DNA from: Branchiostoma floridae
Taxonomy: Eukaryota > Chordata > Leptocardii > Amphioxiformes > Branchiostomatidae
NCBI RefSeq assembly: GCF_000003815.2
Contig: NC_049979.1
Coordinates: 20,864,909-20,928,908 of the forward strand
Reading direction: 5' to 3'
Length of the DNA stretch: 64,000 nt
The notes beneath the pieces are model-generated. The model had not been told where the DNA came from, made no database searches, and worked only from the letters and a program-made list of their open reading frames with translations. Each line of letters starts with the position of its first letter. The first letter of the stretch is position 1. Shown piece by piece: positions 35,584 to 53,073 of the stretch. A program made the position numbers and the translations under genes.

Positions 35584-35596
35584 GGTTCAAAGGTCA
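35584..35596 (+). promoter_or_regulatory. DR1 nuclear receptor element, gene A promoter
   Basis: GGTTCAAAGGTCA is a DR1 (GGTTCA, A, AGGTCA) matching the HNF4/RXR/PPAR type. It lies 121-133 bases upstream of the gene A ATG, in antisense orientation to the gene. The identical 13-mer is at the same place in gene C. Receptor identity is inferred. Confidence 0.6.
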
Positions 35597-35613
35597 AGGT
35601 TTTACGTGCTTAC

Positions 35614-36372
35614 ATTTTTCTGACAGGTATTAGTTGTGCTGTATTTCTGTATTTTCCTTTCTATCGCTAAATAGCTAGATTAGTAGACACAGCTCAGATC
35701 ATCTGCTGTATTGTAGTCTATTTTTTTATTAGTGCATACTGTGTATAGTGTATAGTAGAATGGTTTGTCCACTACGATACAATTTGTGCCGTAAAGTATT
35801 TATTACCTTCACCAAGAAGGTTATGCTTTTATTTGTGGCGTGGTCTTAAATTTGGACGTAAATGTGATTAACGCGAGAAGCTGTTAGTGGATCTTCATGA
35901 TATTTAGTTGGTAGGTTTCAATTTGGGAGACCCTTAGGTCAAGTTCTAAAATGGACATCGTAGCCCAATACTGTGGCGCTGCAGCAGAAATTGTATGTTC
36001 ATGTATTTGTTAGTGTAGTCCTTGGGCTGGTAATTAGGAAAATACCCGGCCTCTTCGCCCGCATGACATTACGTACCTTCCAGAGTCGCAGAAAAATGTT
36101 AAACATAGGATAACAAAAAGTATCAAAGGACATGTAAGCAAAAGTACGTGGTTTCACCGACTATACCTGAATACTAAAGAGGTGTAATCAATTCAACAAA
36201 TAAAAATGCTCTAAAAATTCAGAGCTTCTATATGAGTTGCCTGTAACCTTTGGGTTCCCTTGCATTCAACGTAATTAGACATTTTTGATCATTTACTAGA
36301 AAACATGTGGCCAAATAGTCGTAGGTTTGTTCAATACTGCACGTCATTATCAGATACATGTACGGGTCTACC
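35614..36372. other. Intergenic region between P450 genes A and B
   Basis: Contains a fragment of the SINE head (35,769-35,795) and the presumed 3' UTR of gene B. No exon was found. TTTATT near 35,800 is a possible distal poly(A) signal for gene B. Confidence 0.45.
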
Positions 36373-39300
36373 TTAGGCCGTAAGAGGTTTAATCTTCAGA
36401 AAAAGACCCGGTTTTCTAGCACGCATAATTATTTTAGGAACAGGAATGGGCTCCGTTAGGGTATCATCAGTAGTCAGACTGAACCGCTGCAGGATGAGCG
36501 CAACAGCTGTCTTCAATTCGTTCATGGCGAAGTGTTGTCCGATACAGTTCCTATAGAAAATAGAAAGTCGAATGATACTACGTTTAATTCGTGAATTAAT
36601 CCATATCATGGTTCGGAAAGTAGCAGCAGTATTTTTTTCACAACCAAAGAGCTAAAAGTCGCTAGAAGGCGCTGCGATGAAAAGAATGCAGTCCCAAATA
36701 TGACTGGGTCTGTATCCCCCTCAATGTCGTTGTACCTAGGTCTTTATTTTCCTTAGAAAGGTAACAGATTGACTATCGATACGTTGGCTGGTACTCAACT
36801 TCCGGCGAAAAATAACCCCTTCTTTCCACTGATTCATCAACTTGAGGAACTTAAAGAATCTTACCTCGGTCCGGCAGCGAAGGGGATAAATGCATATGGG
36901 TGGCGGTCCTTGGAGTTCTCGGGTGAGAATCGGAGTGGGTCGTACTCCTGCAATTAATGGCAAATAAACTTCAAAGCTAGCAGTTGGAATTTTGTGCAAA
37001 ACTCCAACAAAGATGATTGCTAAAATTCGTTAATTTTTGTTACATCATATTTGCCTCATATCTGAATTTCTTCTGTTATTATCATTGTTATATTAGAACT
37101 TCCTGTACTAATTATGATTCACATTTTCATTGATATTTTCTCGATCGTTCATAGCTGGATCGTATTTATTTTTACTTTGGAAGAACAACAAGAAAAAGAA
37201 GATTGATGTGTTTTGCTGACAATTGAACTAGAACATCATACCATATGGTTTTCCCAGACATGCGAATTGTGATGTAGAGTATTGATTCCTATGACGACTC
37301 TTGCTCCTATGTTGAAATGAAAATAACAGGTTACTGTTATTTGCCCCACAAGTTCCAAAGCAATTATACATTACAGAACATTGTAATATTAAATAATACA
37401 AATAAATCAAGCAAATGGATACTTTCTCTAAAGAGTCAGACATTTAAGATATTACTCACTATCTTTCATCTGTGAGAATCTGAAGTATAAGGACAACCTG
37501 TGCATAAATACTTGAAATTCTCTTTAAAGAGTCGATCCATTTTTAGTGATATATTTCACAATTTGCGAGGTATGAAAATATTCACATTGGACCAAATCTG
37601 GCTGAGTTGACAGAGACTATGTTCAACGGGTTACTTTTACCAATATCATAACAGTTTTATAAGAACGAGGACAACAACTTGTAAGATTGTTATATTTTGT
37701 TAATGCTGTATAGTATATGTTGCGTGTTCCATGATGTGTTATGTGTGGGTCACGAAACCAGCAACACTGCCTGTGTTCCATGTGTGTTGTCTTGTTGCAA
37801 TTCCAATGAAATCAAACTGACCGCACCTTCTGGGAGTGTCCTTCCATCTGGGAACGTTAGGGGGCTCTCTAGTTGTCGGAATATCATGGGTACAGGAGAG
37901 AACATCCGCATAGCCTCCTTCACACACATGGTGATGTACCTCAGGGAGGGCAGAAGATCCCTACAGAGATGAGAGTCAATAAGAACAATATCAGTGCCAC
38001 GTGTTGACCAATTTGATGGTAATGTTTATTCTTACAAAAAATAAAGATACCAAAAGATTAAGTGTATATCCAATATCCAAAAGTTTAAACAAGCATGCTT
38101 CTTAGACATGACCATACCACGTCACTTCCGTTCTCCCCCTGAAGCACTTCCTGTATCTCCTTCCTGCACTTCTCCGAGTTGAATCGAAAAGTATAGCAGT
38201 TTGCTAATCGTTCTCACGTATTTGCTTGACGTGTACCAAATGTATATATGTTACGATTTTAGAAATCCCCTCACCACGTCACTTCCGTTCCCCCCTGCAG
38301 TACTTCCTGTGCCTCCCTCCTGCACTTATCCTGATGTCCCGGATGACGAGCCAGACAGTACAAGGTCCAGGCCAGCCCGCTGGCTGTGGTGTCGTGTCCC
38401 TCGAACATGAAGGTGTCCACCTCGTCACGGATCTCAGCATCAGTCAGGCCGTTTCCATCTTCATCCTGCAAATATTTTAATCTTATGATATGATAAAAGT
38501 AACACAAGAAGCTACAAAAGGACAGAAGGTCAAATAGCTTGCAAATGTGAAGTCTATTTCCCCACATGTCAGAAAACAACCACAAACCTTTGCTTCTAAA
38601 AGAATGTCCAGGAAGTCGAGGTATTTCTTCCGGTTAGCTCTTCCCTCGTTGCCCTGATTCAGAGTCTCCCTCCTCTCAGCGATGATTCTCTCTGCGAACT
38701 CGTGCACAAGTTTACAGGCTTTGTAGTACCTTGTAAATGAGAGTAGTGGAAAACTAGCATGAACGTATTGAAAAAAGACCATTTAACAAAATAGCAATTG
38801 AATCTACATGTACGAACATGTAGACGTTTTATACATGCCTCAAACGTTTTCATGCGTTTCCTTTTTTGTTTTTCAACATCTATTTTCAACTAGCATTGAA
38901 CAGCTTTGCTTCTCTTTAGTAGACTATACCTTATACGAAAATAAAGGTTTATAATGAGCTAGCTCTCGTTTCGCAAGGTACTGACTACCTTTGAAAGATC
39001 ACCAGAAGGAAAGGATACATGGGAGTTGTTGTAGGGTTCTTGTTTTTATCCCAGGTACAACTTGCGGATTAGCAAATGCATATAAACTTACTTCCTCCCG
39101 TCCGAAGACAGAGCGTAGATCAGATCGACCCTGTGATAAATGGTCCTGCCCCTCTTCATGGTCAGGTCTGTCAGGTCGTGCACGGCAGCGATGTAGTCGT
39201 TGGTCTTCCTACATTTTGTACGGTAGACAGACAACAGACCGTTCCCGATAGCTGTCCATCACAAAACTGTTCAACCAATGATAACATAGCAGTTTGGAGG

Positions 39301-51755: not shown

Positions 51756-52731
51756 GGTATCTGATAATGACGTGTAGTATTGAACACGCCACATCAAACT
51801 AGTGGTTGAGTACTTATCTTGCCGCACGCTTTCCAGTTGGTGATTGTGTGATTACGCTAAATGCAATGGAATAAGTCAGGCAAGCTAAACCTTAATGCTT
51901 TTTCGTGTCTCACATGTACAGGCAACTCTTATTAAGGTTTTGAATTTTGATAACATTTGATAGTCCCCAGGTGTAGTCCCTGAAACGTACTTCTGCTAGA
52001 ATATGACATTCGGTACTTATTTTATGTTTGAAAGTTTTTTTATGGTGATACTAAATTGTACACAGAGGATTTCAGTTACAATCTTATCATCAGATGAAGA
52101 CTGTGAACACCATCGATGATTTGCTCCAAACTGGAAATGGCCACAGTATTGAAGGAAATGAACTGTGAACGTAACTGATCAAGATATGAACTGGAGGCGT
52201 CTTTTACGCTATATATAGATATGTATAACAGGTATAACATGCTGTGTACCCTAAGAACAATCTATAATTTGGTGCTTTACAGGCTAGACTTCGCCAAAAA
52301 CATTTTCTATCTTTGGTATCTTTTGGAGATGAACTGCCCTGTTGTACAAAATACAAAGCTATCATTTGTAATCCTGTCTGGAAGTCCTAGTCTTTAGCTA
52401 TATATTTACTTTTTCTATAAGCTATTGCGTAGATATTAGTTTATTAGGTATGTCCTGCCCTAGAACTTGCCATCCGTTACAGTTGTTGTGCAATAAAGAT
52501 TGATTGTATCAAGCGCAACAGCACTAACAGGAAATATTTAGAGAGGGAGACGGTTATATTATCATATATATACAAACAAATACAAATGTACAGCAATATA
52601 CCACTAAGAAGCTTCCTTGGGGTGAAGAAATAAAGTCAGGGACCAATGTCATGAGTAGCATTGAATGTGTGTATGTGCACACCTGACAAATACTACCGAA
52701 ATAATTTCATTAGGTTGGTAGAGCATAGGAT
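51756..52731. other. 3' flank of gene C
   Basis: Presumed 3' UTR of gene C to about 52,515 (AATAAA at 52,492-52,497), then unrecognised sequence with a short (TA)n near 52,565. No exon. Confidence 0.5.
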
Positions 52732-52964
52732 ATAGGAGTTTTCTTTTTCACAACCAGTTGACCTCACCTTAGCTCAACCGGGACGAGGGGGGTACAAACT
52801 CAGTCATGTTTGGGATTGTGTTCTCGCCGCAAAAGCGCCACCTACATCAACTATATCGGCGAGAAGTAGAACTCCAGTTAGAAGTTCTTCAAGGAAGATG
52901 TCTGACAGGCATCGAAACGTCAGCTTGGGTGAGATTAGTTGGTTGTGTAAAAGAAAACTCCTAT
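52732..52964. mobile_element. MITE-like inverted-repeat element between genes C and D
   Basis: The left terminus ATAGGAGTTTTCTTTTTCAC and the reverse complement of the right terminus (..AAAAGAAAACTCCTAT) pair over about 37 bases, extending to GACCTCACC / AATCTCACC. The 233-base element has no ORF. Its interior contains CATCGAAACGTCAGC, a motif common in dispersed invertebrate repeats. Confidence 0.75.
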
Positions 52965-53053
52965 TTCCCCGACAAATAGTGTTTATACTGTTTTGATGCA
53001 CTCAAAAGAGAACTGTGTAAATCAGCTTCTTGATGCCTGATATCCTCATGTAC

Positions 53054-53073
53054 CGACCTTTGCCCTTTGTCCC
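53054..53073 (-). promoter_or_regulatory. Double DR1 nuclear receptor element, gene D promoter
   Basis: The minus strand reads GGGACAAAGGGCAAAGGTCG: three half-sites (GGGACA, AGGGCA, AGGTCG), each separated by one A, so two overlapping DR1 elements. It lies 57-76 bases upstream of the gene D ATG and is antisense to it. Confidence 0.55.

Follow-up and report, generated by a model that had tools for sequence, protein, structure and literature searches.

The best described relative of the element considered here is the direct repeat with a one-base spacer (DR1) that acts as peroxisome proliferator response element (PPRE) in vertebrate lipid genes, in which two AGGTCA-like half-sites follow each other with a single base in between (PMC2323243). 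Within the CYP4 family, vertebrate CYP4F genes are reportedly repressed by peroxisome proliferators, possibly through HNF4-alpha, according to a review (PMC2840373). Regarding amphioxus, accessible hepatic elements of Branchiostoma lanceolatum are enriched genome-wide in Hnf4a sites near metabolic genes (PMC6292497), and hnf4 has been described as a marker of the digestive module of the adult gut in work covering B. floridae among other species (PMC12768270). Here we describe DR1 elements located a short distance before the start codons of four CYP4-like genes (A to D) within a stretch of 64,000 nucleotides of the B. floridae genome (contig NC_049979.1, positions 20,864,909 to 20,928,908, from now on "the window"), together with their counterparts in front of most other CYP4 genes found in the same genome.

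The lancelet sites resemble the vertebrate PPRE in their half-sites, in the direct repeat and in the one-base spacer, and their predicted affinities are within the binding range (PMC2323243). They differ in that no site of the window comes closer to AGGTCAAAGGTCA than two mismatches, and in that they are known here from sequence alone. With the proposed action of HNF4-alpha at vertebrate CYP4F genes they have in common the enzyme family and the class of site, and they would fit a repression of CYP4F through HNF4; there a possible role has been put forward, while here we deal with a prediction in an invertebrate chordate (PMC2840373). The hepatic elements of amphioxus are similar in clade, motif class and association with metabolic genes, but that study is genome-wide and on B. 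lanceolatum, whereas ours concerns single proximal sites over one gene family (PMC6292497). That metabolic genes of the amphioxus hepatic tissue have HNF4 sites is therefore already in print. For a DR1 common to most CYP4 promoters in one non-vertebrate genome the literature searched offered no precedent: no paper on amphioxus CYP4 promoters was found among the matches listed, judged by their titles and the beginnings of their abstracts, and the excerpts of PMC4076195, PMC7827873, PMC8537429 and PMC5752451 contain nothing on the subject.

DR1 sites before the four CYP4-like genes of the window

Searching the window with the gene D protein (tblastn) revealed four CYP4-like genes and no fifth one. 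Genes A (30169..35463, start codon 35463) and B (36373..43546, start codon 43546) are on the minus strand, and genes C (44319..51755), whose closest paralog is A, and D (53130..58355) are on the plus strand. The stop codons of A, B and C were read by eye, while D is a hand model of twelve exons, open throughout except for an in-frame TGA in exon 2 (53880-53882). The D protein is assigned to CYP4 by its match to the Pfam p450 family (365.5 bits) and by its best PDB match, CYP4B1 (E 3.8e-130), and A, B and C belong to the family through their similarity to D. The products of these genes are probably fat-processing enzymes. An earlier annotation, made from the letters of the window without database searches (the sequence-only reading), had referred to "all four CYP4F-like genes", a count that is right for the window, although the array continues with four more copies on the same contig.

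The four DR1 sequences pointed out in that reading are present verbatim at the positions it gave, and all four are antisense to their genes, as it had said. Specifically, gene A is preceded by GGTTCAAAGGTCA (35584..35596, plus strand) with 120 bases to the ATG, gene B by AGGCCAAAGTTCA (43665..43677, plus strand) with 118 bases, and gene C again by GGTTCAAAGGTCA (44213..44225, minus strand), homologous to the A site and with 93 bases to the ATG. Before gene D there is an overlapping pair, AGGGCAAAGGTCG (53054..53066, minus strand) and GGGACAAAGGGCA (53061..53073, minus strand), made of three half-sites in total and located 56 bases from the ATG. The range of 57-133 bases given previously for these distances fits the measured gaps if the A site is taken to its far edge. 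Compared to a direct repeat of two RGKTCA half-sites, A and C have no mismatches, B has one and the two D sites have two each. By half-sites and spacing the window sites are DR1 elements, with D as a weak member. The pattern RGKTCAARGKTCA is matched exactly at two places of the window, the A and C sites, at five places with one mismatch (B included; two of these overlap) and at 24 with two mismatches, among them both halves of D.

These sites are in excess over chance. The window contains seven DR1 matches with at most one mismatch, compared to a mean of 1.2-1.5 in windows generated by Markov models of order 1, 2 or 3, and none of the 150 simulated windows of any order reached seven. In a second test the top score of each 150-base promoter was compared with the remainder of the window, using a hand-made matrix and two untuned tables derived from gel-shift data for PPAR-alpha and PPAR-gamma (PMC2323243 Table 1), the class values of which were combined by multiplication, a rule of our own. 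With the hand matrix P was 0.0022 for A, B and C and 0.0044 for D; with the PPAR-alpha table, 0.0022 for A and C and 0.011 for B and D; and with the PPAR-gamma table, 0.0044 for A and C and 0.0022 for B and D. The sequence-only reading had proposed a comparison with randomly chosen 150-base windows, and against the rest of the window the four promoters are above chance (P 0.0022-0.011). None of 1000 column-scrambled versions of the matrix or of either table matched the combined score of A to D. All four rank within the top ten to eleven sites of the window by either PPAR table. Without any matrix, the promoters of A, B and D alone have 13-mers in common that none of 60 shuffles equalled.

Recurrence, position and spacing in CYP4 promoters across the genome

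In order to obtain held-out promoters, the host genome was queried with the first exon, which gave 14 matches: A to D, four genes of the same contig array (E, F, G and H), I, J and N on contig C15, K on C7, M on C9, and L022, an exon-1 match with a stop (E 7.9) that was left out of the counts, which refer to the other 13 genes. At all nine new loci CYP4-like exons adjoin the first exon on the same strand (tblastn with the C protein), and for K, M and N it is this common strand and nearness that link the first exon to the CYP4 exons. In eight of the nine held-out promoters (200 bases before the start codon) the hand matrix found a DR1-like site with P<0.015. The best sites were AGTTCAAAGGTCA in E, GTTACAAAGGTCA in F and H (score 11.4), GGGCCAAGGGTTA plus GTTACAAAGGTCA in G, a perfect GGTTCAAAGGTCA in J, AGTCCAAAGGTCA in M and TGGGCAAAGTCCA in N, while K has CGGTCAAAGTTCG in sense and GTCCCAAAGGTCA in antisense orientation, the latter closer to the ATG. 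At P<0.05 the PPAR-alpha table recovered four of the nine (E, J, K and M) and the PPAR-gamma table six (E, G, J, K, M and N).

Some features of single genes deserve mention. The distantly related D (53054-53073) and M (L021) each have three half-sites that form overlapping DR1s, antisense to the gene in both cases. Gene J (L026) has an in-frame stop (IIQ*RKKAL) in the exon matched by tblastn at 2738-2884, with second copies of two exon pieces nearby; of its sister, gene I, the first part only was fetched.

Position and orientation are biased. Of the 12 genes with P<0.015 by the hand matrix, 11 have their top match in antisense orientation. At a score of at least 11, the 13 genes pooled have 18 matches between -200 and 0, 16 of them antisense, compared to 0-4 per bin of 200 or 400 bases elsewhere out to 1.4 kb. 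Raising the threshold to at least 14 leaves a site within -200 to 0 in nine of the 13 genes, and at a score of at least 16 there are seven matches in this bin versus three in all the remaining ones, two of which come from the divergent genes B and C, each counting its neighbour's site. The 88 kb of fetched CYP4 loci contain three sites that score at least 16, the same number as the promoter sites of E, J and M. The word TGACCTTTG appears between -36 and -168 on the gene strand in nine of the 13 genes and on the opposite strand in none.

As controls we used seven promoters, five of GST genes together with those of two other window genes, one B4GALT-like and one bHLH-like (the start of the latter is a guess, the first Met of the open frame). 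The GST loci came from 19 matches, five of which had a readable first exon; the remaining 14 were dropped as promoters. No control promoter reached a score of 14 (0/7, against 9/13 for CYP4), and in the background of all 19 GST loci (59,466 bases) five sites scored at least 14 and two at least 16. The search for SREBP, HNF1, E-box, FOXA, GATA and CCAAT words gave no clear enrichment.

When the same half-sites were placed in 21 arrangements with a cut-off of P<0.02, DR1 alone stood out, in eight of the 13 genes (A to D included) and six of the seven paralog groups. The runners-up were the inverted repeat with one spacer base (IR1) and the everted repeat with four (ER4), with three genes of one group each, and the direct repeat with two (DR2), with two genes in two groups.

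The same element emerges without any matrix. With each paralog group represented by a single promoter (A, B, D, E, J, M and N), the best common 9-, 11- and 13-mers were all cuts of TGACCTTTGAAC(T), with TGACCTTTG and TGACCTTTGAACT as top common words that none of 150 shuffles equalled; restricted to E, J, M and N the same words came out, equalled by 0.5-1% of 200 shuffles. Since these representatives had been picked after the held-out scores were available, the test was run again on the least favourable member of each group (C, B, D, F, I, K and N). This still gave TGACCTTTG and CTTGACCTTTG as 9- and 11-mer (0/100 shuffles each) and ACCTTGACCTTTG as 13-mer (equalled by 4% of shuffles). Comparing 250-base promoters between groups by blastn (69 pairs, E<0.05) produced eight matches. 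Seven of these span the DR1 completely or almost so in both promoters compared (A-E, A-J, C-E, C-F, C-G, C-H and C-J); the eighth, G-N, does not. The promoters of K and M, which are on different contigs, preserve CGGTCAAAGTTCGC and TGACCTTTGG unchanged within flanks that are hardly alignable, and these words sit in the only two blocks that blastn aligned between both promoters.

Candidate receptors and alternative explanations

Given its short distance to the ATG and its almost constant orientation, the DR1 is most readily interpreted as a proximal promoter element for a nuclear receptor. We consider it probable that the sites of A to D represent the proximal DR1 element of most of the CYP4 genes found, retained through duplication and most likely serving an HNF4-type receptor. 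The element, in most cases antisense and some 20-155 bases upstream of the ATG, would have been kept while the surrounding promoter turned over. An HNF4-type receptor (NR2A) sitting on it would sustain basal expression in the gut and the hepatic diverticulum, and might be tunable by fatty acids and displaceable by RXR:PPAR or COUP-TF. What we infer is that a receptor binds, as well as the tissue, the ligand and the direction in which expression would change.

The word CAAAG[GT][TC]CA, which we take to be the core consensus typical of HNF4, appears in 11 of the 13 CYP4 promoters versus 0.14 expected in 13 x 200 bases. Within the window it is present in A, B and C and absent from D, and other DR1 receptors are compatible with it as well. 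CAAAGTCCA, presumably a core of HNF4 type, is present in M and N, and variation of the second half-site as seen in the CYP4 promoters is of the kind that HNF4 tolerates. Together with the Hnf4a sites enriched in amphioxus hepatic elements (PMC6292497) and the hnf4 mark of the digestive gut module (PMC12768270), these last two features make HNF4 the leading receptor candidate, PPAR being a less likely one.

It appears unlikely that the element is a true PPRE at which an RXR:PPAR heterodimer would induce the CYP4 genes with fatty acids, as in rodent CYP4A, considering that F, G, H and N fail P<0.05 in the PPAR-alpha table and that M and N have the core CAAAGTCCA. The predicted relative strengths of the four window sites for PPAR:RXR, 0.34-0.56 by our product rule, are in its favour (PMC2323243 Table 1), while the reported repression of vertebrate CYP4F by peroxisome proliferators argues against it (PMC2840373). 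The statement in the sequence-only reading that vertebrate CYP4 genes respond to PPAR-alpha holds for CYP4A, but is not in line with what this review reports on CYP4F.

The conserved word could also be a single extended half-site of NR4A type (AAAGGTCA) or a TCF/LEF core (CTTTGAA), the DR1 look being incidental. The antisense AAAGGTCA is found in nine of the 13 promoters and CTTTGAW in four, and the common word of the least favourable set, TGACCTTTG, reaches little into the second half-site. But B and D lack AAAGGTCA and have nevertheless a DR1 at P<0.02 in the spacing test (N also lacks it, with 0.07), the ERR-type TCAAGGTCA appears in none of the 13 promoters compared to 11 for CAAAG[GT][TC]CA, and visual inspection shows the second half-site preserved in A, B, C, E, J, M and N, all of which makes this explanation improbable.

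Another possibility is that one ancestral DR1 was passed on to all the genes and persists as a remnant with no present function. The promoters of A/C, E-H, I/J and K/M are indeed alignable by descent within each group, and gene I, with no site, indicates that loss is tolerated. Against this, blastn comparisons among A/C, E-H and J still align nothing of the promoter except the DR1, and B and D show the same arrangement spelled in different letters, so that we regard inherited remnants as quite improbable. The sequence-only reading had favoured selection over recent duplication for B and D. This stands insofar as their promoters have no alignment to A/C outside exon 1 and the motif is found in most held-out paralogs; for A and C it does not, since their promoters are 72% identical over 230 aligned bases, the shared 13-mer being inside a longer conserved stretch, and have to be counted as one event, a single duplicated promoter, and not as two independent cases. 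The motif in most held-out paralogs, being also the only alignable promoter part between some groups, makes retention by selection the better reading. Chance matches, with a reader free to choose motif and place, are hardly credible: the lack of significant common 8- to 10-mers in A, B and D alone, and of any in F, I, K and N alone, would agree with them, but the held-out result by itself makes them unlikely already, and the seven-group de novo tests, the scrambled matrices and the position and spacing controls add to this.

A number of results weigh against an HNF4-type DR1 shared by these genes. Regarding the methods, the hand matrix was built after A to D had been seen; the control set is small, with seven promoters, and its best member, a GST promoter, scores 11.1, near the 11.4 of F and H; about three of the 69 blastn comparisons would match by chance, compared to the eight matches seen; and K, M and N were found through weak exon-1 matches (E 0.04, 0.42 and 0.16). 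Among the window genes, the D site is weak under some forms of the consensus (P 0.011 to 0.13), the 8- to 10-mers common to A, B and D alone are not significant (equalled by 30-62% of 60 shuffles), and neither B nor D gave a blastn match to any other group. In the held-out set, the promoter of gene I has no DR1 (hand matrix P 0.90), though that of its sister J is perfect and both promoters align; the site could have been either lost in I or gained by J. In F, G and H the second half-site is broken by one inserted base that E lacks, with P of 0.08-0.25 in the PPAR-alpha table for the three of them and 0.24 in the PPAR-gamma table for F and H; the top PPAR-gamma match of N differs in sequence from its top match by the hand matrix; F, H, I, K and N fail the DR1 cut-off of P<0.02 in the spacing test; and F, I, K and N by themselves have no significant common word at any length tried (55-97% of 150 shuffles equal). 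Finally, D and J, both carriers of good sites, have in-frame stops and may be pseudogenes, null alleles or assembly errors.

A more speculative role, which we find doubtful, would place the DR1 in the core promoter itself, as an orientation-locked receptor site beside the TATA box and ahead of the transcription start, where an HNF4-like receptor would help to set CYP4 initiation, an arrangement that would be older than the chordate CYP4 split. The idea derives from the TATAAAA of gene C (44200..44206, plus strand) and from TTATATAA in K, each six bases upstream of the DR1 (the sense one in K). If the TATA box of C is used, its DR1 would lie between this box and the transcription start. TATA-like words are found in four of the 13 promoters, near the DR1 only in C and K.

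Other features of the window and implications for CYP4 control

Additional DR1-like sites are found in B and D, at most 0.9 kb downstream of the start codons: a DR1-spaced triple half-site (CGTTCA A GGTTCA A GGTCCA) in intron 1 of B (42966..42985, plus strand), TGTTCAAAGGTCA in intron 1 of D (53529..53541, minus strand) and TGGTCAAAGTTCA in intron 2 of D (53967..53979, plus strand). The start codons of B and C are 772 bases apart (43546-44319), head to head and with both DR1s in between, likely a shared promoter region. Genome-wide, GGTTCAAAGGTCA has 109 occurrences versus 27 for the reversed control, and among the first 100 places listed it forms local arrays of 3-5 copies on contigs C6, C10 and C14.

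A 191-base stretch with 95% identity, probably a repeat element, is common to the far-upstream regions of A and D. By eye, an intron of C (46780-47290) contains a long tandem repeat of the GGTTCTGACC / GGTTCAAACT type, and one of B (39790-40260) has a run of 100 N with an apparent inverted repeat on both sides. Outside the CYP4 genes, open frames at 26335-28323 and 59358-62926 resemble the reverse transcriptases of two non-long-terminal-repeat elements, and single-frame stretches at 4072-4764 and 21570-22454 resemble a bHLH factor and a beta-1,4-galactosyltransferase, all of them named by eye.

The presence of a DR1 before most CYP4 genes suggests an old, shared on-switch. Whether the control of CYP4 by lipid receptors predates vertebrates, as the sequence-only reading had proposed, is not answered here but becomes directly testable. 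The genome itself provides natural variants of the element for direct comparison in reporters: absent in I, broken by one base in F to H and doubled in D and M. In this sense the lancelet CYP4 genes offer a test case for when fatty-acid-sensing receptors took over the control of fatty-acid omega-hydroxylases.

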